DNA from: Labilithrix sp.
GTDB lineage: Bacteria; Myxococcota_A; Polyangia; Polyangiales; Polyangiaceae
DNA length: 64,000 bases
Direction of reading: 5' to 3'
NCBI GenBank assembly: GCA_019637225.1
Contig: JAHBWC010000020.1
Span: 1-64,000 of the forward strand
In this document: piece by piece, positions 33,077 to 45,331 of the stretch
Position numbering within the stretch: position 1 is the first letter of the stretch
Layout: every line of letters begins with the position of its first letter
Translations under genes and position numbers: made by a program
Notes under the pieces: model-generated
What the model saw: only the letters and a program-made list of their open reading frames with translations
Databases searched by the model: none
What the model was told of the DNA's origin: nothing

Positions 33077-34654
33077 TCAGGCTGGGTAGAGGGCGGCGAG
33101 GCGCTCGACGACGCGTTCGCCGTCCATCGCCGCGGAGACGATGCCCCCCGCGTAGCCGGCGCCTTCGCCGCAAGGAAAGAGCCCATGCACCGCTGGATGC
33201 TCGAGCGTATCGGGACGACGCGGAATGCGGACCGGAGAGGACGTGCGCGACTCGACCGCGATCACGACCGCTTCGTTGGTGTAGTAGCCGCGCATGCGAC
33301 GGCCGAAGACCTGGAGGGCCTGCTGAAGCCGCTCCGCGATCTCCGGCGGGAGGAGCCGGTCGACGCGCGCGGAGGCGAGGCCCGGCGGATAGCTCGACGA
33401 GGGCAAATCGCTCGAGAGGCGGCCTTCGCAGAAATCGACGAGGCGCTGGCCCGGCGCGGCCTGCGTCTTGCCGCCCGCCTCCCATGCTGCGCGCTCGACC
33501 GATCGTTGATATTCGACGCCGGAGAGCGGTCCGCCGTCGCCCACGGGCCCCCGAACTTCGACCACGACTCCCGAGTTCGCAAGTGGGTTATTGCGTTTGC
33601 TTGGGCTCCATCCGTTCGTCACGACTTCGCCCGGAGCCGTCGCGCACGGGGCGACGATGCCACCAGGACACATGCAGAACGTATAAACGCCCAGTCCCTC
33701 GACCTGCGCTACTTCGGAATAGCTCGCGGGCGGCAAGAACTCGCCGCGATCTGTCATGCGATAACGCGCCTGATCGATCAAGGCCTGTGGATGCTCGACG
33801 CGAACGCCTAGCGCGAAGTCCTTACGCTCGATCGCGATCCCCTGCGCGAAGAACATCTCGAAGATGTCGCGCGCCGAGTGGCCGGTGGCGAGAACCACGC
33901 GCGTTGCGTCGATCGTCGTGCCGTCTCGAAGCGACACCCCCGTGAGCTGACCGTCCTTCACGACGAGTCCGGTCACGCGCGCGCCGAAGCGCACGTCGCC
34001 GCCCGCGCGCAGGATCGCTTCGCGCATCGACGTGATGATGCCCGGCAGCTTGTTCGTGCCGATGTGCGGGTGGGCGTCGACGAGGATCGCCGGGCTCGCG
34101 CCATGGGCGACGAAGGTCGCGAGCACGCGCGCGATGTCCTCACGCTTACCGCTCCGCGTGTAGAGCTTCCCGTCGCTGTACGTGCCGGCACCGCCCTCGC
34201 CGAAGCAGTAATTGCTATCGGGATCGACGACGCCACGTTGGGTGATGGCGGCGAGGTCGAGGCGGCGAGCGCGCACGTCCTTGCCTCGTTCGAGGACGAG
34301 GGGACAGAGGCCACGCTCGATCGCGCGAAGGGCCGCGAAGAGCCCCGCCGGTCCTGCGCCAATGATCACGACCGTGGGCTTGCCTTCGACGTTGGGCAGC
34401 GCGGGCGGCGTCGTGACGGGAGCCTCGAAGGGTCCGTCGGTAGAGATCTCGACGCGGAGCTGCATCCGGGGCTCGCGACCGCGTGCGTCGATCGAGCGCT
34501 TCACGATCCGGATGTCCTTCACCTCGGCTGGATCGAGGTTCGCCGCGCGCATGGCGGCGGCACGCACCTCCGCTTCGACGCTCGCCTTGGCCGGCGAGAG
34601 CACGACATCGACGGAGACGACCGCGTCTTTCCTCACGCCCTCGAGTCTAGTCAC
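33077..34654 (-). CDS. FAD-dependent dehydrogenase of the COG2509 type
   Basis: About 525 residues. A short N-terminal domain (1-90, with a conserved EVKDIRIVKRSIDAR) precedes the dinucleotide-binding fold: TVVIIGAGPAGLFAALRAIERG (GxGxxG, about 95-116). Then come FGEGGAGTYSDGKLYTR, the substrate/FAD region HIGTNKLPGIITSMREAI, VVLATGHSARDIF, and the C-terminal FPCGEGAGYAGGIVSAAMDGERV, which ties FAD. This matches the "uncharacterised FAD-dependent dehydrogenase" family (COG2509); substrate unknown. A GTG at 34654 is used; a second GTG six codons later is equally possible. The region is less G/C-rich near 33,550-33,800, hinting at a transferred segment. Confidence 0.85.
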   Translation of the reverse strand: MTRLEGVRKDAVVSVDVVLSPAKASVEAEVRAAAMRAANLDPAEVKDIRIVKRSIDARGREPRMQLRVEISTDGPFEAPVTTPPALPNVEGKPTVVIIGAGPAGLFAALRAIERGLCPLVLERGKDVRARRLDLAAITQRGVVDPDSNYCFGEGGAGTYSDGKLYTRSGKREDIARVLATFVAHGASPAILVDAHPHIGTNKLPGIITSMREAILRAGGDVRFGARVTGLVVKDGQLTGVSLRDGTTIDATRVVLATGHSARDIFEMFFAQGIAIERKDFALGVRVEHPQALIDQARYRMTDRGEFLPPASYSEVAQVEGLGVYTFCMCPGGIVAPCATAPGEVVTNGWSPSKRNNPLANSGVVVEVRGPVGDGGPLSGVEYQRSVERAAWEAGGKTQAAPGQRLVDFCEGRLSSDLPSSSYPPGLASARVDRLLPPEIAERLQQALQVFGRRMRGYYTNEAVVIAVESRTSSPVRIPRRPDTLEHPAVHGLFPCGEGAGYAGGIVSAAMDGERVVERLAALYPA

Positions 34655-34694
34655 ACTTGCGTGAAGGATGGACGGCGTCTAGTAAGTTTGCGAC

Positions 34695-35207
34695 TTGGAC
34701 CGGAATCGCACCCCTTGTTGCCTCGACCCCAAGACGCGCGTGCCATGCGGCACGCGCTGGGCGGAGCTCCGCAAGTGGGCGTGCATCTCCACTGGCAAGG
34801 GCGTCAGCCTCGTCACGCTCACCGGGACCGCGCAGGGGAATGCGCCGTTCTTCGCGCAGCCCGTGGGCTACGACGGCCGCACCTTCATGATCGGCTTCGA
34901 CCACGGCTGCGACACGGAGAAGCTCCTCCATGACGTGTGTCACTGGCTCGTCGCCCCCAAGGAGCGGCGCGGCCGGATGAACTTCGGGCTCGGGCCCGGC
35001 CCGACGACGGTCAGCGATCATGAGAGTGACAACGAAGAGGTCACGGTGATGCTCCTCGAAGGACTCCTCGCGCCTCTCTTCAAGCTCTCGCCGGACAAGA
35101 TCGCGAAGCCCGACTACAACGTCGCCGACAAACGAAACCTCGACTGGGACGCCTGCGCCGCGCGCGCGGAAGCGATCTTCGAGTCCGTTCGTCCAAGCGT
35201 TCCGTAG
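34695..35207 (+). CDS. Unknown protein
   Basis: Up to 170 residues from a TTG at 34695; the next in-frame starts are GTG 34740 and an internal ATG near residue 65. Family unknown. Residues 65-100 hold a His/Cys-rich stretch (FDHGCDTEKLLHDVCHWLVAP), followed by an acidic turn SDHESDNEEVTVMLLEGLLAPLF and a C-terminal DACAARAEAIFESV helix. His-Cys-His-Glu spacing could bind metal, but I have no family to support this. It is divergent from the FAD-dependent gene and convergent with the GH43 gene, with a hairpin between them. Coding probability moderate, start uncertain. Confidence 0.5.
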   Translation: MDRNRTPCCLDPKTRVPCGTRWAELRKWACISTGKGVSLVTLTGTAQGNAPFFAQPVGYDGRTFMIGFDHGCDTEKLLHDVCHWLVAPKERRGRMNFGLGPGPTTVSDHESDNEEVTVMLLEGLLAPLFKLSPDKIAKPDYNVADKRNLDWDACAARAEAIFESVRPSVP

Positions 35208-35325: not shown

Positions 35326-37224
35326 TCAGAGCTCCGGGAGCGACCGCACGCGCACGTGGTCGAAGCGCGCCGTGAAGCCCGAGCCGCCGAACGCGACGAG
35401 GCCGATCTTCGCGTCCGGTCCGAGCTGGTGGTCCCAGGTGGCGCCGCGCGAGAACGTGACGCCGTCGCGGCTCGAGTACGAGACGTACGTCTCCTGGCCG
35501 TTGCGGACGACCTTCGCGATGCGGAGCCACGTCGTTCGACCGGGCGGTCCGCCGACGCCGGACCCGTAGACGGGGAAGCCCGGAGAAGGCGAGGGGACCT
35601 CCTTGGCGAACTCGATCTGACGCGTCTCCCAGATCGAGACGTGGGCGAGCTTCACGTAGGCGTCGTCGCCCGCGTAGACGACGAGGCCTGCTTGCACGAA
35701 GTTCTGGCAGCAGCCGGTGTCGGGGACGTCGAGGTCGACCTTCACCTCCGCGAGCCAGTTGCCGGCGGGAGCGGACTCGGTGAGGACGGAGGCGTTGTTC
35801 GAGCCGCCGTGGAGATCGGCCGCCTGCGTCGCGAGGCGGAAGACGCCGCCTCCGACGCCGAAGTCGGCCGCCGGCGGCGGCCTCACCCACGACCAGCGCG
35901 ACGCGAGCGCGTTGCCGGTGAACTCCTCGGACGCGGCGGCGACGAGCGGGAGCTTCTTGACGTCGACGCGATCGAGCCAGAGGAGGTAGCCGTTCGGATC
36001 GAGGACGTCGGCGAGCGTGTCGGCGACGAGCCGGGTCTTGGCTGCGTTGCGAGCGTCGCGCGGCGCCGTCGCCGCGGGAGCGAGCTGCTTCGTGTCGGAA
36101 GGCCCGAGCCCGCCGCGGACCGACGGCCACCCGCCGCTCCACGTGACGCGGTCGACGAGCATCGGCCGGCGCGTGTAGCCGACCGAGCCGTCGAAGTAGG
36201 CGTCGCCGCGATCGATCGCGTGGTAGGCCGTGTACCAGTTGCCCGCGGCGTCCTGGAAGACCGAGTTGTGGCCGGCGCCGACCCAGCGGTTGCCGTTCTG
36301 CGTGAGGACGGGCGAGCCGCCCGCGCGGGCGTCGAGGAGCGACACTCCCTCGCGATCGGCGAACGGCCCGAACGGGCTCTTCGAGCGTCCGGCGAAGACC
36401 TGATAGCCGGTGAGCGGTCCGTTGCAGCAGTTGCTGGCGGAGGCGAAGAGGTAATAGGAGCCGTCCTTCTCGACGACGTTCGCGGCCTCGTACCGATTCG
36501 GGATCGCGATCGGCGTCGCGGTCTCGGGCAGCGAGCCGAGCCCGTCGGCGGTGAGGTCGCGGGCCTCGATGCCGCCGTAGTAGCTGCCGTAGTAGAGCAC
36601 CGCGCGCCCGCTCTTCGTGACGAGGACGTCCGGATCGTACGTCCAGAAGAAGTTGCAGCCGCCGCCGCCGCGTCGGGGAGCCACGACGGGCGCGCCCGCG
36701 TCGACCCACGGGCCGAGCGGGCTCGCGCTGGTCGCGACGCCGATCGCGTTGTCGCTCGAGCAGCCGGGCTCGCCGCTCACCTCGTCGACCACGTCGGTCG
36801 CGACGTAATAGAGGAAGTACTTCCCGTTCCGGTACACGATCTCCGGAGCCCAGAGCGAGCCGCCGCGCGCCACCCACGACGGCGGCTCGGCGAACGCATC
36901 GCCCATGTACTCCCACGCGACGAGGTCACGCGAGCGGAGCATCGGCAAGAGGTGGAATCGGCGCGCGCCGCGCTCGTCGACGTCCTCGTCGTTCAGCGAG
37001 TCGGTGGTGCAGAGCGCGTACCAGTACGGGTCCTTGCCTTCGCCGCGGATCACGGTGGGGTCGGCGCAGTTCGTCTGCTCGAGCCCGTTCGGCATCCGGA
37101 TCGTCAGCGCGTTCTCGAAGAACACGAGCTCGTCCCTGCCCCCCGCGCGATCGTCGGCGAGGGCGGTAGAGCCACAAATGAGGAGCGTGGCGGAGATCTT
37201 CAGGGTCACGCCTGACTTCGACAT
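35326..37224 (-). CDS. Secreted GH43-family glycoside hydrolase
   Basis: 632 residues with a cleavable signal peptide (about 1-23, ending ALA/DD). A five-bladed GH43 propeller occupies residues about 40-400: NCADPTVIRG (general-base Asp), GGSLWAPEIVYRNGKYFLYYVA, WTYDPDVLV, and YEAANVVEKDGSYYLFAS (candidate acid Glu), then VGAGHNSVFQD. The C-terminal 200 residues form a concanavalin-like sandwich (EEFTGNALASRWSWVRP, then WLAEVKVDLDVPD and FVQAGLVVYAGDD) that resembles the XynB-type C-terminal beta-sandwich. GH43 enzymes act on arabinans and xylans. A strong AGGAGG lies just before ATG 37224. The gene follows the PEGA-like protein by 37 bases and so probably belongs to the kinase operon. Confidence 0.9.
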   Translation of the reverse strand: MSKSGVTLKISATLLICGSTALADDRAGGRDELVFFENALTIRMPNGLEQTNCADPTVIRGEGKDPYWYALCTTDSLNDEDVDERGARRFHLLPMLRSRDLVAWEYMGDAFAEPPSWVARGGSLWAPEIVYRNGKYFLYYVATDVVDEVSGEPGCSSDNAIGVATSASPLGPWVDAGAPVVAPRRGGGGCNFFWTYDPDVLVTKSGRAVLYYGSYYGGIEARDLTADGLGSLPETATPIAIPNRYEAANVVEKDGSYYLFASASNCCNGPLTGYQVFAGRSKSPFGPFADREGVSLLDARAGGSPVLTQNGNRWVGAGHNSVFQDAAGNWYTAYHAIDRGDAYFDGSVGYTRRPMLVDRVTWSGGWPSVRGGLGPSDTKQLAPAATAPRDARNAAKTRLVADTLADVLDPNGYLLWLDRVDVKKLPLVAAASEEFTGNALASRWSWVRPPPAADFGVGGGVFRLATQAADLHGGSNNASVLTESAPAGNWLAEVKVDLDVPDTGCCQNFVQAGLVVYAGDDAYVKLAHVSIWETRQIEFAKEVPSPSPGFPVYGSGVGGPPGRTTWLRIAKVVRNGQETYVSYSSRDGVTFSRGATWDHQLGPDAKIGLVAFGGSGFTARFDHVRVRSLPEL

Positions 37225-37261
37225 ACGGCCTCCTGGCGTAGGGGAATGAGCGGCGCGACGG

Positions 37262-38194
37262 TCAGAACCGCGCCGCAAAGCTCGCCGCTCCGCCGTTCGG
37301 CTGCGGAGCGACGCCGAACGAAACGAACCCCGGGCGCGGTGCGCTGCGCGCACCCTCGGCCCGATCGCGCTCCGTCGACGAAGAACCCCCGCTGGTCAAG
37401 AAGAGGACGGCTGCCACCCCGAGCGACACCACGCCGACGCCGAGCGCGACGTCGGCGACGAGGAGCTGGGTCTTGATCGAGTCGACCTGCTCCTGACGGC
37501 AACTGCCGAAGCACTCCTTCTCGAGGGCGCTCCTCCGCGACATCCCGTGGAGCGCCAGCGCGCCGAAGGTCGCGGTCGCGGCGACGCCGACGCCGCCGAG
37601 CACCCACACGCTCGTCGGCGTGCGACGCTCGGATCGCGGCTCGGCGGGCTCGCCGCCCGGCGTGGTCTTCTCCGTCTTCGCCCAGCTCACGCTGACGACC
37701 CGCGCCTTCTCGCCTTCGCGCACCATGATCGTCTGCTCGATCGGCGGCTCGCTCGCGTGCTCGAAGCGGAGCGTGTGCGAGCCGGGGTCGAGGGAGATGG
37801 ACTTGCCGTCGAGCGTCTCGGTGAGGTGCTGACCATCCATGGTGACGTGCACCGCGGTCACGTCCTTGCCGTCGACGCCCTTGGCCGCGAACGCGATCGA
37901 GGGCAGCGCGGCCTCGACCTCGGTGAGCCAGCGCGTGCAGTCGGGTTGCATCATCGACGGGCACCGATCGCTCACGCACACGAGGAGCGACTCGCGCGCG
38001 CGGAGGAGCGCGCCGCTCTTCCGCTGGATCTGGGCGTTCCTGTAGGTGTCGGCGCAGTACGCCTTGTCGGGCTCGCTGGCCGCGGCCGTCGTCGGGGCGG
38101 CGGCCGAGGCGAGCCCGGTGAGCACGGCGGCGAGGGCGAGCACGCGTCGCGCGGGGGCGACAGTGCGGGGGGAACGATGCGAGCTCGGCTTCAT
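37262..38194 (-). CDS. PEGA-like membrane protein encoded after a Ser/Thr kinase
   Basis: 310 residues. Signal-like hydrophobic segment at about 19-40 (VLALAAVLTGLASAAAPTTA), then a Cys-containing helical domain (AYCADTYRNAQIQRKSGALLRARESLLVCVSDRCP). A PEGA-like beta domain follows (VHVTMDGQHLTETLDGKSISLDPGSHTLRFEHASE), a membrane helix (SVWVLGGVGVAATATFGALAL) and a second near the C-terminus (LLVADVALGVGVVSLGVAAVLFL). This arrangement is a recurrent companion of Ser/Thr kinases in Polyangiales; it probably senses or scaffolds at the envelope. GAGGAGAAG precedes ATG 38194. Its start lies 10 bases after the kinase stop, and it is followed by the GH43 gene, so all three probably share one transcript. 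Confidence 0.75.
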   Translation of the reverse strand: MKPSSHRSPRTVAPARRVLALAAVLTGLASAAAPTTAAASEPDKAYCADTYRNAQIQRKSGALLRARESLLVCVSDRCPSMMQPDCTRWLTEVEAALPSIAFAAKGVDGKDVTAVHVTMDGQHLTETLDGKSISLDPGSHTLRFEHASEPPIEQTIMVREGEKARVVSVSWAKTEKTTPGGEPAEPRSERRTPTSVWVLGGVGVAATATFGALALHGMSRRSALEKECFGSCRQEQVDSIKTQLLVADVALGVGVVSLGVAAVLFLTSGGSSSTERDRAEGARSAPRPGFVSFGVAPQPNGGAASFAARF

Positions 38195-38204
38195 GGTCTT
38201 CTCC

Positions 38205-39791
38205 TCACAGACACTCCGGCTTGATCTGACGGATCCCGTCGGGGCCGATGGCAAACGGACTCTCGCAGCCGGGCTTGTGGGCGGGGCTCGATGTGGAGGT
38301 CGCCTCCGCCCGCGCCGTCGGAGCGGGCGCCGGCGCGCGACGTCGCCCAGGGCTGCGCGCGAACGCCAGCGCGGCGCGACTCCGCACACGCGCGCCGGCG
38401 GCTGCGGCGCGGACCATGTCGGCGGTGGCCTCGAGGCCGTCGGGAGCGCCCTCGAGCTCGGCGGCGCGCGGCGACGGAGCGAGCTCGGTCGACGGCTCAC
38501 TCGCCCTCGGCGCGACGCCGTTCGTCGTCGACACCGACGTGATCGGGGCCGCGTCGATCGGCGCGGCGGAGGCCGCGTCGCGGCGGGTGAGCGTGCGCAG
38601 CCCCACGAGGAGCATCGCCACGGTGAACGCGACCAGCGCCGCCGGCATCGTCCAGCTCCGGGGAGCCGCGTGCATCGTCGGCCGCTCGCTCGCGCGCGGC
38701 TCTCCGTCCGCGCGCAGCTCGAGCGAGCCCGTCCCCGTCCGCGGGATCGTCGCGGTGACGACGTGGATGCTCCCGGTCGATCCGGCGCGTGCCATCGTCG
38801 TGAGACGCCCGTCCGGCGCGCCCTGGATGTCGCTCTCGATCCGGCGCATCACCGAGGCGACGCGCTCGATCCGCGTCCCGGCGACCTCGCGGACCCAGTC
38901 GGTCACGTCGCGCGCCGGCGCGGGAGCGACGGCGGCCTCGAGCGCGACGGCCATCTCGCGCGCGGTGTCGAAGCGCTCGGCCGGATCCGGGTGGGTCGCC
39001 CGCGCCACCACCGCGTCGAGCGCCGGAGTGGCGTCGCCGCGGAGCGTGCTCGGGGGCGGCGGCGCCTCGATCTCGTTCTTCGCCAGCTTGAGGAAGAGCC
39101 CGTCGTTGCGCTCGCCGGCGTGGCGCCGCCGGCCGGTGAGGAGCTCCCAGAGGATGACGCCGGCCGCGTAGAGATCGGCGCGGCGGTCGGCGGTGCCGCG
39201 CACCTGCTCCGGCGCCATGTACGTGACCTTGCCCTTGATCACGCCCTCGCGCGTCTCCTGCGTGTTGATCGCGGCCTTCGCGATGCCGAAGTCGAACACG
39301 CGCGCGACGCCGTCGACCCCGACGAGGATGTTGTGCGGCGACACGTCGCGATGGACGATCTCGAGCGGCTCCCCCGTGTCGCCGAGCGCCTCGTGCGCGC
39401 CGTGGAGCCCTTCGAGGACTCCGCACACGATCGACGAGATCACCGGCAGCGGGATGGGACGGCTGCCCTCGCGCGGCATCATCGCCTCGAGCGAGTCGCC
39501 GAGCACGTGCTCCATGACGAGGAAGACCTCGGTCTCGTCGGCCACGACGTCGAGGGTCGAGACGACGTTCGGGTGCGCGACCCGCGCGGCGAGGCGCGCC
39601 TCGTCGAGGAACATCTGCACGAAGTGCGCGTCGTTCGCGTAGTTCGGATGCAGCCGCTTGACCGCGACGAGGCGCGAGAAGCCGATCGCTCCGTGCATGC
39701 GCCCGAAATGGACCGTGGCCATCCCACCGGCCGCGATCTGGTCGTAGAGGACGTAACGGCCCAGCTCTCTCGGAAGCACACCGACGCTCAT
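38205..39791 (-). CDS. Membrane-anchored Ser/Thr protein kinase
   Basis: 528 residues. Kinase domain at about 10-285: IAAGGMATVHFG loop, AVKRLH with the ATP Lys, HRDVSPHN catalytic loop with its Asp, FDFGIAK, and MAPEQVRG. A low-complexity linker leads to one membrane helix (about 380-400, MPAALVAFTVAMLLVGL), then an extracytoplasmic Ser/Ala-rich tail ending CESPFAIGPDGIRQIKPEC, whose two Cys could form a disulphide or ligand loop. The kinase would sense outside and phosphorylate inside. It heads the unit kinase - PEGA protein - GH43, and is divergent from the second GH43 unit across 460 bases. Substrate unknown. Confidence 0.9.
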   Translation of the reverse strand: MSVGVLPRELGRYVLYDQIAAGGMATVHFGRMHGAIGFSRLVAVKRLHPNYANDAHFVQMFLDEARLAARVAHPNVVSTLDVVADETEVFLVMEHVLGDSLEAMMPREGSRPIPLPVISSIVCGVLEGLHGAHEALGDTGEPLEIVHRDVSPHNILVGVDGVARVFDFGIAKAAINTQETREGVIKGKVTYMAPEQVRGTADRRADLYAAGVILWELLTGRRRHAGERNDGLFLKLAKNEIEAPPPPSTLRGDATPALDAVVARATHPDPAERFDTAREMAVALEAAVAPAPARDVTDWVREVAGTRIERVASVMRRIESDIQGAPDGRLTTMARAGSTGSIHVVTATIPRTGTGSLELRADGEPRASERPTMHAAPRSWTMPAALVAFTVAMLLVGLRTLTRRDAASAAPIDAAPITSVSTTNGVAPRASEPSTELAPSPRAAELEGAPDGLEATADMVRAAAAGARVRSRAALAFARSPGRRRAPAPAPTARAEATSTSSPAHKPGCESPFAIGPDGIRQIKPECL

Positions 39792-39868
39792 GCGTTCTCC
39801 TCGCGAGCTGCAAACGATATGCGTGGATCAAAATGGCGCAATCATTAGTGTGATATCGAAAGAGAATT

Positions 39869-39897
39869 GCGGGGAGGTCCCCGCAGGTGCGGGGGAC
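39869..39897. promoter_or_regulatory. Alternative overlapping hairpins in the divergent region
   Basis: GCGGGGA-GG-TCCCCGC (39869-39884) and CCCCGCA-GG-TGCGGGG (39879-39894) share their middle arm, so only one can form at a time. This resembles an attenuator-like switch or a binding site. It also resembles a single type I-E CRISPR repeat, but only one copy exists. Confidence 0.4.
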
Positions 39898-40211
39898 GCC
39901 CTGCTGTGACATGCCCTCGGCGCGTGCGAGCGGCATGTTCGGAGCAGACGAGAGGTCGGCGAGGTGCTCCGACACGCGAGCCAGGTCGACGGAGATGCGC
40001 TCAGCGTGCCATCACGCCCACCTTGTGGACGTCGTCGGTGAGCCTGATTTGTCGACGATCCAGCGATCCGATGTCGAGCTCGAGCGTCGAGCTCATGGGC
40101 TCGTGGCGCGCGTCGGCCTTCATCGACCGACGCCGTCGCCGAGGTGGCACCTCGAGCTCGACGGGTGGTGCGCGGAACTTGCAGAGGGAAACGTCGCGCT
40201 CGGAGTCGACG

Positions 40212-40223
40212 ACCGATATCGGT
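40212..40223. promoter_or_regulatory. Perfect 12-base palindrome before the GH43-unit start
   Basis: ACCGATATCGGT lies 29 bases upstream of the first start codon of the plus-strand unit, next to a strong AGGAGG. A second half-site ATACCG follows at 40230. Position and symmetry fit an operator. Confidence 0.45.
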
Positions 40224-40251
40224 TTTGCGATACCGAAGGAGGAACCAATTG

Positions 40252-41211
40252 ATGATTCATTCGCTTCGCGATCACGCTCCGCGACTGATGCTCGCCTCGC
40301 TTCTGTCGACCGCGGTGGCCGTCGCCGCCGGGTGCGCCGACGACGCCGACTCGCTCTTGACGAACCCCGACGACTCGCCGGGCACTCCCAGCGTCGACGG
40401 CGGCCGCGCGACCGACGACGAGGACGCCGCCACCGACCCGATCGACTCCGGCACCGACGCGGCGCCCGACGACGCGTGCGCCGACGGCGGCTGCGTCGCG
40501 CCGAACGGCTGCGCCGCGTTCCCCGAGGCGTCGTTCTGCGACGACTTCGATCGCGCGGACGCGCTCACCGCGGGCAAGACCCGCTGGGACTTCATCGAGC
40601 CGAGCGAACAGCCGGTGGCGACGCTCTCGAGCGCGCACGCGGTGTCGGCGCCGAGCTCGCTTCTGTCGCGCGTGATCGACAGGGACACGCCGGGCGCGAA
40701 GTTCGCCAAGACGGTCACCAAGGCGAACTTCGAGGAGGTGACGTGGGCCTACGACGTCTACTTCGACTCGATCGGCCAGGAGGACGGCTTTTTCCTCGAC
40801 GACTTCCAGTTCAGCGACGCGGCCGGCCCCGATACGTTCGGCTTCCGCCTCGTGATGTTCGCGCAGGCCGGCGCGATCCGCGAGCTGAAGGTCGAGCACA
40901 ACCGGCAGGCCAACGGCGGCCCGTACGTCATCGAGCCGGCGCTCGCGGCGGGCGCCGTCGAGCTCGGGAAGTGGCACCACTTCGAGCAGACGGTGAAGTT
41001 CACGTTCGCCGACGACCCCGCAGGAGACAAGGCCCAGTACACGCTTCGAATCGACGGGGCCGCCACGCCTGCCTTCCAGGCCGAGTACCCCGGAGCGAGG
41101 CGCGAGCAGGTGGCCTTCGCTCGCATCGCCGGCCTGCCGCTCGTCTTCAACAAGGAGCGTAGCGCGGGCCTCGCCATTCACTGGGACAACCACGTTCTCG
41201 AGCTGAAATGA
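40252..41211 (+). CDS. Lectin-fold (concanavalin-like) lipoprotein
   Basis: 319 residues. Lipobox VAAGC near residue 27, then an acidic Ser/Thr/Asp linker up to about 80. The mature domain starts CAAFPEASFCDDFDRADAL, a LamG/concanavalin-like signature found in many myxobacterial secreted proteins; strands include VTWAYDVYFDSI, GFRLVMFAQAGAIRELKVEHN, WHHFEQTVKFTF and IHWDNHVLELK. No catalytic pair typical of lyases is obvious, so I read it as a glycan-binding surface protein. The ribosome site AGGAGG is excellent, with ATG 40252. Its stop overlaps the next ATG by four bases (ATGA), so translation is coupled. Confidence 0.78.
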   Translation: MIHSLRDHAPRLMLASLLSTAVAVAAGCADDADSLLTNPDDSPGTPSVDGGRATDDEDAATDPIDSGTDAAPDDACADGGCVAPNGCAAFPEASFCDDFDRADALTAGKTRWDFIEPSEQPVATLSSAHAVSAPSSLLSRVIDRDTPGAKFAKTVTKANFEEVTWAYDVYFDSIGQEDGFFLDDFQFSDAAGPDTFGFRLVMFAQAGAIRELKVEHNRQANGGPYVIEPALAAGAVELGKWHHFEQTVKFTFADDPAGDKAQYTLRIDGAATPAFQAEYPGARREQVAFARIAGLPLVFNKERSAGLAIHWDNHVLELK

Positions 41212-42119
41212 GACGAGCCCGCTTCGCCCTCCGCGGGGCATCCGCCCTCCTCCTCGCCGCGACCGCGGCGTGCTCGTTCACCGCCGGGTTCGACGGCTTC
41301 GTCGGACCCGGAGCGGGTGACGGTGGCGGCGACGATCGCAACGGCGATGGATCCCAGAACCTCGCGGGCGACGAGACGGGCGCCGACGGCGGCGGCGACT
41401 CGAACCGAGACTCCGGCGCGGAGCTCGACGGTCCGGATCCGAACGTCCCGCCGGTGTTCGTCGACGCGGGCACCTCGTTCTGCCCGACGCCCGAGTCGGC
41501 GACGACGTTCTGCGAGGACTTCGACACGGCCGACCTCACGGCGCGCTGGCTCCGCGAGGGCGTGTTCGGCAAGCTCACGAGCTACGCCTCGCGGTCGGCG
41601 CCGAACGTCTTCCTCCTCGACGTCCCGCCGACGACGACGGGCGGCACGTTCGTGTCGAAGATCACGCGGGCCTTCGACACGTCCGCGACGAGCGTGGTGC
41701 TCAGCTTCGACATCAAGCCGGAGCGCGTCTACCTCGGCTCCTCGTTCTTCATCCTCGGGGCGCTCGAGTGGGCCCGGGGTGAGGACAAGTACTCGCTCCG
41801 CCTCGTCTACTCGAACGGGAGCGTGCGGCTCGAGGAGTCGAACCTCGTCCCGCCGCCGAACAACAAGGACGCGTACCACCCGTTCTTCGCGCTCCCCGAG
41901 GGCAAGTGGACGCGGCTGACGCTCGACATCGTGGCGTCCGGCGCCACGCCGGGCGCGCAGCTGCTCCTCGACGGGATCGCGGTCGGGACACGCGAGCCGC
42001 TCGCCCCCACCGTCGGCATCGATCCTCGGCCGACGTTGATCCTCGGCGCCGTGTTCGCCGGCAACCCGCACACCGGATGGACGCTCCGCTACGACGACGT
42101 CATGTTGACGTTTCGCTGA
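41208..42119 (+). CDS. Second lectin-fold lipoprotein
   Basis: 303 residues, coupled to the previous gene by ATGA. Lipobox ATAAC near residue 22, then a Gly/Asp-rich linker (30-88). The mature domain opens FCPTPESATTFCEDFDTADLTARW, the same fold as the upstream protein, then VSKITRAFDTSATSVVLSFDIKP, YSLRLVYSNGSVRLEE, KWTRLTLDIVASG and WTLRYDDVMLTFR. It differs enough in sequence from its neighbour that a recent duplication is unlikely. The two proteins probably bind glycan at the cell surface for the downstream GH43. No signal for catalysis is evident. Confidence 0.78.
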   Translation: MRRARFALRGASALLLAATAACSFTAGFDGFVGPGAGDGGGDDRNGDGSQNLAGDETGADGGGDSNRDSGAELDGPDPNVPPVFVDAGTSFCPTPESATTFCEDFDTADLTARWLREGVFGKLTSYASRSAPNVFLLDVPPTTTGGTFVSKITRAFDTSATSVVLSFDIKPERVYLGSSFFILGALEWARGEDKYSLRLVYSNGSVRLEESNLVPPPNNKDAYHPFFALPEGKWTRLTLDIVASGATPGAQLLLDGIAVGTREPLAPTVGIDPRPTLILGAVFAGNPHTGWTLRYDDVMLTFR

Positions 42120-42157
42120 CGGGCGCCGAACCGCCGACACTTCCGAACAAGGAGCGC

Positions 42158-43288
42158 ATGCGCGAGAGCATCAGGCACGGTAAGCGCCTCACCGGCGTCA
42201 CTTCCCTCGTCGTCACCCTCGGCAGCTGTACGCCCCCGGCCTCGCAGTCGGCGGGGGCCCCGGACGATCACGTCGACGCCGGCGCGACGTCCCTCGGCGA
42301 GGACGGAGGCGCCCCGCCCTCCGACGCGTCGACGACGCCCGACGCGACCGCGGGCGCCAGCTACACGAACCCCGTCTTCGCCGACGACTTCCCCGATCCG
42401 TTCGTCCTCCGCGACGGCGATCGCTACTACGCCTTCGCGACCAACTCCGGCGGGAAGAACGTTCCCGTCGTGACCTCCACGGATCTCGCGAGCTGGAGCG
42501 AGCTTCCCGACGCGATGCCCGTCCTGCCGGCGTGGGCGCGCTCGAACGCGTCGCTCACGTGGGCGCCGGCGGTGCTCAGGCGCGGAAGCACGTTCGTCCT
42601 CTACTTCACCGCGAGGTCCATCGCGTCCGGGTTCCAGTGCATCGGCCGCGCGATCGCGACGAGCCCGGCGGGGCCGTACGTCGACGACTCCAGCGGGCCG
42701 TTCGTCTGTCAGGTCGGCGAAGACGCGCCGCTCTGCGGCTCGATCGACGCGAGCCCGTTCGTCGGCGCGAACGGCGACGCCTACCTCCTCTGGAAGAGCG
42801 ACGAGAACGCCGCCGAGTGCGCCGGAGACGCGAGGCTCTGGGCGCAGCGGCTCGGCGTGGACGGGATCTCGCTCCTGGGCTCGCCGACGGAGCTCCTCCG
42901 TCGCGATCGCGGCTGGGAGATGCCGCTCGTCGAGGGCCCAAGCATGCTCGCCCACGACGGCCGCTACTACCTCTTTTACTCCGCCGGGTGGTGGGAGAGC
43001 TCGAGCTACGCCATCGGCTACGCGGTTTGCGCGACGCCGCTCGGTCCCTGCGAGAAGAAGACGTCGGACGGGCCGCTCGTGAAGTCCGACGGCGAGGCGC
43101 TCGGCCCCGGAGGGCAGGAGTTCTTCACCGACACCGGGGGCAAGACATGGATGGCGTACCACGGCTGGTCGAGCCCCATCGTAGGCTACCGGAACGGCGG
43201 CGGGCGCTCGCTCCGGATCGATCCGGTCGCGTTCGTCGGCGAGGTCCCCGTGATCGCCGGCCCCACCACTTCACCGAGGCCGCTATGA
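42158..43288 (+). CDS. GH43-family glycoside hydrolase lipoprotein
   Basis: 376 residues. A short N-terminus with lipobox TLGSC (about 20-24), an acidic linker, then the GH43 propeller from about residue 68: YTNPVFADDFPDPFVLRDGDRYYAFAT (general-base Asp), WAPAVLRRGSTFVLYFTA, CGSIDASPFVGANGDAYLLWK (pKa-modulating Asp), and MPLVEGPSMLAHDGRYYLFYSAGWW (candidate catalytic Glu). GQEFFTDTGGKTWMAYHGW fits the family too. This single-domain form is typical of arabinofuranosidases, arabinanases and xylosidases; the substrate is not readable from sequence. GGAG precedes ATG 42158; the gene is 38 bases after the second lipoprotein and overlaps the next start by ATGA. Confidence 0.9.
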   Translation: MRESIRHGKRLTGVTSLVVTLGSCTPPASQSAGAPDDHVDAGATSLGEDGGAPPSDASTTPDATAGASYTNPVFADDFPDPFVLRDGDRYYAFATNSGGKNVPVVTSTDLASWSELPDAMPVLPAWARSNASLTWAPAVLRRGSTFVLYFTARSIASGFQCIGRAIATSPAGPYVDDSSGPFVCQVGEDAPLCGSIDASPFVGANGDAYLLWKSDENAAECAGDARLWAQRLGVDGISLLGSPTELLRRDRGWEMPLVEGPSMLAHDGRYYLFYSAGWWESSSYAIGYAVCATPLGPCEKKTSDGPLVKSDGEALGPGGQEFFTDTGGKTWMAYHGWSSPIVGYRNGGGRSLRIDPVAFVGEVPVIAGPTTSPRPL

Positions 43289-43842
43289 ACGCGATGAACG
43301 CGAGGTCGCTGATGAGCAGTCGTCCCGAACCGAAGACAGTCCCGCCGCCGAGAGGCGCGAAGGACGCGTACAGCGCGCCGACGCGCGTAGGGACGCTGCC
43401 CGAGGAGGTGCTCGCCGCGATGCGCCAGCAGGAGACCGACGCCTCGCTCGCGGCGCGGACGCAGAGCGGGACCCGCGCCGCCACACGCCCGAGCCCTCCG
43501 CCGCTGCCGGCGGACGTGTTCGCGCCTGCGCGGACGTCCGCCCCGCCGCCCTCGGCGACCTGGCCGCCCGCGTCGCAGGCCGTCACGACACTGCCGCCGC
43601 CTCCGCCGTTCGGCGCGCCTCCTCCTTTCGAGCTAGGTACGCCTTCGCCTTTCGAGCCCGGTGCGCCGCCGCTCCCGTCGATGAGCACGCCTCCGCCGTT
43701 CGGGCTGTCGCCGCCGGCGTCCTTCGATCTCTCCGTCGACGTCGAGTTCCCGCCGCAGCCGAGGCTCGCGCGCTCGATCGTGATCGTCGTCTGTTTCGCC
43801 GTGCTCGGCGGCCTGCTCGCGGCGGCGATCCTCTTCTGGTGA
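43285..43842 (+). CDS. Pro-rich tail-anchored membrane protein
   Basis: 185 residues. The start ATG 43285 overlaps the GH43 stop (ATGA); ATG 43312 (MSSRPEPK) is an alternative. Residues 30-145 are low-complexity Pro/Ala/Ser (PPPLPADVF, TLPPPPPFGAPPPFE), apparently disordered. The C-terminus is one hydrophobic helix (IVIVVCFAVLGGLLAAAILFW) that ends the protein, so it is a tail anchor with the bulk in the cytoplasm. No known family. It belongs to the GH43 unit by overlap and may link the outer enzymes to a cytoplasmic partner such as the divergent kinase, but this is inference. Confidence 0.7.
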   Translation: MNAMNARSLMSSRPEPKTVPPPRGAKDAYSAPTRVGTLPEEVLAAMRQQETDASLAARTQSGTRAATRPSPPPLPADVFAPARTSAPPPSATWPPASQAVTTLPPPPPFGAPPPFELGTPSPFEPGAPPLPSMSTPPPFGLSPPASFDLSVDVEFPPQPRLARSIVIVVCFAVLGGLLAAAILFW

Positions 43843-43972: not shown

Positions 43973-45331
43973 ATGCGTGCAACGTTCGTTCTGGCGCTCG
44001 TCGTCGCGACCTCGACGGTGTCGTGTGGCCGTGCTCCGTCGTCGACCACGGAGCCGGCCGCGCCGTCGAAGGCCGCGCAGAACCCGCCGGGGATGTCGCG
44101 GCTCGGCCACTTCAGCACGGCGGACGGGATGATCCATCTCGTCATCGACCGGACGGGCGACAAGGTGAAGATCCGCGTGGACGGATCGAGCGACATCATC
44201 GAGCTCACGCAGGATGAGGTCCGGTCTCGCCGAGGGGATCTCCTCGGGTACGCGTTCATCGCGCCCGACGGCGCGCGCATGCTCTTCATCGACACGGGCG
44301 GCGGGGTCAGCTTCGTGAAGGGCGCGACCGAGCATCGCTCCGGCGACGAGCTCCCGCTCGTCCGCGACGCCGACGCCGAGCCGCTCGGCGTCGCGACGGT
44401 GCGGGGCGCGCCGCCTGGGCCGAAGCCGCCGGAGAGGTCGCAGTCGGAGATCGTCGCGGAGGAGCTCGCGCAGATCTCGGTCGTGAAGCGGTTCCCGCAG
44501 TTCAAGCCCGAGGACGCGGGCGATCTCGCCAAGGTCACCGAGGCCTACAAGCTCGTCACCGCCGACATGCTGATGCACTGCACGGACGTGTGCGCGGCCT
44601 GGTACGCGCCGCACCCGCTGCCCGGCGGCAACGGCAAGGGCGGTCTCGGCTTCCAGCGCGACAAGGACCTGAGGCAGGGCCCCGCCACGGAGGCGGAGAA
44701 GAAGGCGCCCCTCGCGAAGTTCAACGCGTGGCTCCGGCCCGACTACGAGTTCGGCGACTGGACGCACCAGATCGTCAAGTCGTCCTGGCTGTCGATCTTC
44801 CAGCTCGAGTTCCGGCGCCTCCAGCCGAAGAGCCCGGTCGTCGTGTGGGACGTCGAGGGCACGGAGATCATCGTCGTGACGCCGGACGGCTCACGCTACT
44901 GGGACAGCCCGCTCGAGAACGGGGAGAAGCGAAACTTCGCCAAGGGGATTCCGCCGAGGGCGGAGTGGCCGGCGCCCATGCGCAACAACCTGCTCTTCCT
45001 CGAGCACGTGAAGGTGATGGGCGAGCGCGGCATCGTCGACAAGAAGCTGGCCGACGAGCTCGAGGGGATCCGGAAGAAGTGGAACGAGTGCGCGCAGAAG
45101 GTCTTCGTCCCCGCGCAGAAGGAGATCGAAGGCAACCTCACCGGCACGGCGCCCCACTACGCGGCGTCGAACCGGAACGATCTCGTGCGTCGGAAGTACA
45201 ACGACAAGGCGATGAAGGAGTGCGGCGGGAATCGGGCTGCGGCGATCCTCGTCGAGATCCTCGCGAAGCGAGACAAGGATCAGCGCGCGCTCTTCGAGCA
45301 GAACGCGGCTCGGCTCTCGACGTTGCGGTAG
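43973..45331 (+). CDS. Unknown large lipoprotein
   Basis: 452 residues. A signal peptide (MRATFVLALVVATSTVSC) has the lipobox TVSC with Cys18. Residues 35-125 are a beta-rich domain (GMIHLVIDRTGDKVKIRVDG, GYAFIAPDGARMLFIDTGGG). From 150 on it is helical with conserved-looking CTDVCAAWYAPHPLPGGNG, FEFGDWTHQIVKSSWLSIFQLEFRRL-like and KKWNECAQKVFVPAQ; three Cys pairs may be oxidised. No named family is recognised. GGGAGG is well placed for ATG 43973. It is probably envelope-located and monocistronic; it ends 8 bases from the convergent SEC-C gene. Confidence 0.72.
   Translation: MRATFVLALVVATSTVSCGRAPSSTTEPAAPSKAAQNPPGMSRLGHFSTADGMIHLVIDRTGDKVKIRVDGSSDIIELTQDEVRSRRGDLLGYAFIAPDGARMLFIDTGGGVSFVKGATEHRSGDELPLVRDADAEPLGVATVRGAPPGPKPPERSQSEIVAEELAQISVVKRFPQFKPEDAGDLAKVTEAYKLVTADMLMHCTDVCAAWYAPHPLPGGNGKGGLGFQRDKDLRQGPATEAEKKAPLAKFNAWLRPDYEFGDWTHQIVKSSWLSIFQLEFRRLQPKSPVVVWDVEGTEIIVVTPDGSRYWDSPLENGEKRNFAKGIPPRAEWPAPMRNNLLFLEHVKVMGERGIVDKKLADELEGIRKKWNECAQKVFVPAQKEIEGNLTGTAPHYAASNRNDLVRRKYNDKAMKECGGNRAAAILVEILAKRDKDQRALFEQNAARLSTLR

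Follow-up and report, generated by a model that had tools for sequence, protein, structure and literature searches.

The locus described here raises the question of why a gene for a transmembrane Ser/Thr kinase lies among genes for GH43 glycoside hydrolases, and whether the kinase is tied to them in function. The locus lies in a 64,000-nucleotide stretch of DNA, the window, from a soil/sludge myxobacterium of the Polyangiaceae (Labilithrix sp.), whose assembly comprises 8.2 Mb in 182 contigs and is 83% complete. To our knowledge, most myxobacterial Ser/Thr kinases have no known signals. Myxobacteria carry up to hundreds of these kinases, with 508 in one Sorangium (PMC3696898). A kinase recognisable by its partner and its tail motif, with a conserved locus next to it, would give a concrete handle on what such kinases sense.

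The locus consists of two units which diverge from a 460-base gap (39792-40251). In the minus unit, the kinase gene (KIN) is followed after 10 bases by a gene for a PEGA-like protein and, after a further 37 bases, by GH43a; the plus unit runs in the order LecA, LecB, GH43b and a gene for a Pro-rich tail-anchored protein. The genes, strands and spacings of the preliminary description were exact to the base, except that the ATGA overlaps said to join the plus unit are present only at the LecA/LecB and GH43b/Pro-rich junctions, while LecB and GH43b are 38 bases apart. The features are as follows:

35326-37224, minus strand: GH43a, secreted GH43 enzyme (Pfam match, PDB neighbours, start codon checked)
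37262-38194, minus strand: PEGA-like partner from a multi-copy family, composed of three helices, a beta-domain and two hydrophobic helices, with a signal peptide
38205-39791, minus strand: KIN, transmembrane Ser/Thr kinase (Pkinase match, translation, hydrophobicity)
38208-38267, minus strand: C-terminal tail of KIN, CESPFAIGPDGIRQIKPECL, belonging to a conserved Cys-flanked tail family
39792-40251, no strand: divergent intergenic region of 460 bp (three-species alignment)
40176-40187, no strand: conserved block AACTTGCAGAGG, invariant in three species
40252-41211, plus strand: LecA, lipoprotein; a start at 40288 is also conceivable
41208-42119, plus strand: LecB, lipoprotein with a concanavalin-like jelly roll (predicted model)
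42158-43288, plus strand: GH43b, lipoprotein GH43 enzyme (Pfam match; nearest solved structure 4qqs)
43285-43842, plus strand: Pro-rich tail-anchored protein; C-terminal TM helix at residues 165-183

KIN, PEGA, LecB and GH43b were found together in five genomes from three genera, in three arrangements. Besides the window genome (G000), the carriers are Myxococcales bacterium 68-20 (G003), Labilithrix sp. ACE_MYX5 (G004), Labilithrix luteola NGEE_A_bin2 (G012), which is grouped as another genus, and G066. Both the order and the divergence of the core (KIN, PEGA, LecA, LecB, GH43b and the Pro-rich gene) are kept in G004 and G003, where the Pro-rich protein has relatives at the corresponding position. 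In G012, KIN-PEGA-LecB-GH43b are co-directional on one strand; in G066, PEGA, KIN and LecA lie on the minus strand and LecB-GH43b on the plus strand. Conservation in relatives thus holds for the linkage of the kinase-PEGA pair to a jelly-roll lipoprotein and a GH43 enzyme in three genera, and fails for the exact divergent arrangement, which is confined to the genus (three genomes) and rearranged elsewhere. GH43a is not a stable member of the locus either, being present there only in G000 and G004; G003 (84% identical, contig C31) and G066 (62-63%, contig C214) carry it elsewhere with no adjoining kinase-PEGA pair. At the flanks of the window locus, an FAD-dependent oxidoreductase gene and an EpmC-like gene (33077-35207) separate GH43a from an MlaD-domain gene and were not found at that place in the G003 and G004 loci. 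A lipoprotein gene downstream of the plus unit (43973-45331), with no Pfam match, likewise had no call at the corresponding place in either genome.

With GH43b as the query, a neighbourhood scan across bacteria returned 80 relatives from many phyla, and a PEGA-family gene and LecB accompanied the relative in the same four loci only. Close LecB relatives (E<1e-39) numbered five in 106 family genomes, all at kinase-GH43b loci. GH43b relatives with neither LecB nor a kinase-PEGA pair nearby were found in G008, G010, G011 and on contig C168 of G066, some of these contigs being short. More distant GH43 loci with a kinase-PEGA pair within 7 kb were detected in G005, G007 and G071, the last pair adjoining Laminin_G_3 proteins. 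Among about 75 GH43 loci, 8 had a strong PEGA gene, where about 2 were expected from our own estimate that chance places some 3% of genes within 7 kb of a PEGA-like gene; this excess is mild and, with shared descent taken into account, not overwhelming.

KIN is a protein of 528 amino acids whose sole Pfam match is the kinase domain (Pkinase, E 2e-31), with the HRD, DFG and APE motifs intact in the translation and one TM helix predicted by hydrophobicity at residues 380-398. In its predicted topology it has in common with PASTA-type kinases (PknB/Stk1) a cytoplasmic kinase domain, one TM helix and an extracytoplasmic part. No PASTA repeats were found in KIN, which does not class as a PASTA kinase (238 bits to NF033483, cut-off 450); it differs in its short tail flanked by cysteines and in having a separate membrane protein as partner. 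Tails of this family, of the type CxPPYxxDxxGxxxxKxECL, are carried by 21 of the 28 kinases adjoining a strong PEGA gene and by 2 of the remaining 18 kinases of these loci (Fisher p 4.6e-5, in a sample of loci picked by GH43 or PEGA with related rows, thus neither random nor independent). Since two cysteines follow a single upstream TM helix, the sequence suggests that the tail lies on the far, periplasmic side of the membrane, possibly closed by a disulfide.

The partner was called PEGA-like on structural and positional grounds. Its AlphaFold model, of low confidence (pTM 0.41), has three helices at the N-terminus, a beta-domain of the transthyretin/carboxypeptidase-regulatory-like type and two hydrophobic helices. 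The predicted beta-domain is compatible with a PEGA domain. No Pfam PEGA (PF08308) match was obtained for the window protein, and 4 of 20 family members matched weakly (best E 0.0078). Some PEGA genes also adjoin a second kinase-like gene without the Cys tail (L160 3376-5355, L216_5 and L162 6880-8268), two of which have five predicted TM stretches. In the open-licence literature searched, we found no description of the kinase-PEGA pair or its tail, nor of any GH43 locus linked to a Ser/Thr kinase. KIN shares with the expanded eukaryotic-like kinases of myxobacteria (PMC3696898 and PMC2887360) its membership of a large paralogous set; a kinase-PEGA two-gene module with such a C-terminal tail was not seen in the papers searched.

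The pair itself is not special to glycans. PEGA-like matches were detected in 35 of the 38 relatives searched, with about 20 in the window genome, and the larger genomes of the family mostly have at least 12 copies; counting kinase paralogues through the PEGA partner, the kinase-PEGA pair is a lineage-expanded, multi-copy generic module. Perhaps, then, modules this abundant simply come to lie near lipoprotein genes and are co-inherited with them without any functional tie. Similar PEGA-like copy numbers in most large relatives, the varied lipoproteins which adjoin the sibling modules and the lack of a nearby PEGA gene at most GH43 loci of the family all fit such a neutral neighbourhood. However, the linkage has outlasted rearrangement over three genera, and with kinases of two clades, and LecB and the kinase-PEGA pair co-occur strictly, so that we regard a purely neutral neighbourhood as somewhat unlikely.

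The two clades were seen in a tree of the module kinases, where the kinases of the window, G003 and G004 fall in one clade and those of G012 and G066 in another. A single clade for the locus kinases was rejected (AU p=0.00025), and a single clade for the PEGA proteins was neither supported nor rejected, as that tree lacks resolution (AU p 0.37). The kinase tree suggests that copies from two paralogous clades reached the locus by repeated recruitment or by swapping in place, and the surface unit seems to work with either of two paralogous pairs. A neighbourhood kept even with a different kinase copy hints at a functional link; recruitment and swapping would each favour such a tie, with few independent events behind it.

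The surface unit was examined through its lipoproteins and enzymes. The lectin fold attributed to both lipoproteins was supported for LecB by its predicted model, a concanavalin-like jelly roll (best Z 16.2 over 201 residues, to a glucuronan lyase; mean pLDDT 67, with most values at 60-88 from residue 81 onward), a fold which in itself is no demonstration of glycan binding. LecA, with no Pfam match, is only distantly similar to LecB by sequence. Both enzymes are genuine GH43 members, as had been proposed, with PF04616 matches at E 6e-45 and 1e-51 (154 and 176 bits, cut-off 32.2), and they were the only two GH43 genes found in the 83%-complete window assembly. The nearest PDB entries to GH43a are endo-alpha-1,5-L-arabinanases, and its C-terminal domain is weakly GH43_C2/DUF1349-like. 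Both proteins share the GH43 catalytic domain with these arabinanases and with 4qqs, but neither reached the NCBIfam equivalog cut-off for endo-arabinanases of the AbnA/AbnB type (GH43a 117 bits, GH43b 35.5, versus 480 for GH43a). The putative catalytic Asp, Asp and Glu of GH43b are invariant among its relatives. LecA, LecB and GH43b probably bind and trim a glycan at the outer membrane.

Relatives of GH43b in Anaerolineae/Roseilinea records (L236 9001-9957 and L238 1561-2526) show 59-60% identity; horizontal transfer of these genes is likely, judging from sequence, since this exceeds the 55% identity of the G012 protein. Between two GH43 genes of G139, an ORF translating to (VN)n marks a simple repeat (L127 10388-10636).

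The preliminary description held that the kinase senses glycan breakdown at the envelope and controls the locus, as an alternative to SusCD or sensor-histidine-kinase systems; in the version weighed here, it would sense the breakdown of arabinan or xylan and induce both divergent units for feeding. The divergent arrangement kept in three species and the resemblance of GH43a to endo-arabinanases agree with this. The locus is indeed unlike a SusCD system: SusD (PF07980) was found in none of the five carriers, two of which are 80-83% complete, and the Bacteroides control matched. As in the SusC/SusD polysaccharide utilisation loci of Bacteroidota, surface lipoproteins and glycoside hydrolases are clustered beside a sensor gene, whereas here the part of the sensor would fall to a Ser/Thr kinase pair, and no regulator was found. 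In the three-species alignment, the 460-bp gap has conserved blocks at both ends, with AACTTGCAGAGG lying upstream of LecA. Within the gap, no sigma-54 (-24/-12) site (TGGCACN5TTGC) or sigma-70 promoter was matched; none of the genes at the locus was recognised as a transcription factor, and there is no FHA-Sigma54 activator gene within four genes of it. Control of the locus by the kinase is thus without a visible route, as neither a transcription factor nor a sigma-54 promoter was found there. The five carriers, two of them 80-83% complete, yielded no match to L-arabinose isomerase (AraA_N domain), the one sugar route covered by our search among the arabinose and xylose routes, a negative result which weakens a simple reading of arabinan as food. 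Feeding on arabinan is possible and not favoured, and with GH43a in addition no stable member of the locus, we consider induction of both units by sensed arabinan or xylan breakdown very unlikely.

The GH43 enzymes could instead act on prey glycan, or on one from the bacterium's own envelope or matrix, with the kinase tuning predation or surface remodelling. The three plus-unit products read as lipoprotein-anchored from their sequences, only two GH43 genes were found in the window genome, and myxobacteria are predators, as the abstract of PMC6971385 states; the missing SusD and L-arabinose isomerase also fit. Many GH43 enzymes, however, target plant glycans, and we rate a prey or self glycan as quite unlikely.

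The reading which we tentatively prefer, at a little under even chances, is that a generic kinase-PEGA envelope signalling module is here coupled to a surface glycan unit, so that the kinase reports the state of the unit or of its glycan. KIN and the PEGA-like protein would be one copy of a two-gene transmembrane signalling module of the Polyangiaceae, different copies of which adjoin different envelope genes. With the kinase domain in the cytoplasm, the single TM helix would present the short Cys-flanked tail in the periplasm, where it may contact the partner at the latter's helical/beta-sandwich domain. This copy would be coupled to LecA, the jelly-roll LecB and GH43b, presumably placed at the outer membrane and binding glycan, and KIN would report by phosphorylating cytoplasmic targets encoded elsewhere. 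We hold this coupling back because the module is common, some GH43b relatives lack the pair, the locus has no transcription factor and the PEGA model is weak. The interpretation given in the preliminary description is thus supported in part: the neighbourhood is real, conserved and modestly novel, and sensing and control by the kinase are put forward as a hypothesis.

The kinase-partner module is of interest in its own right. Kinase-PEGA pairs with a disulfide-type periplasmic tail might even form a general envelope-sensing system of the Polyangiaceae, copies of which were repeatedly recruited to surface units that bind or hydrolyse glycans; we regard this as unlikely, and if true, it would make the module a Ser/Thr-kinase counterpart of glycan-sensing regulators. 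Of the 33 strong PEGA-family genes, 10 have an activator with FHA and sigma-54 domains, a plausible output of a Ser/Thr kinase, within four genes, and none of those at the GH43b loci does. The activators near sibling modules, a candidate output pathway, were identified by Pfam FHA and Sigma54 matches in L163 941-2242 and L169 7152-8468, and further ones by similarity in L142 4506-5675, L176 788-2161 and L179 2-877.
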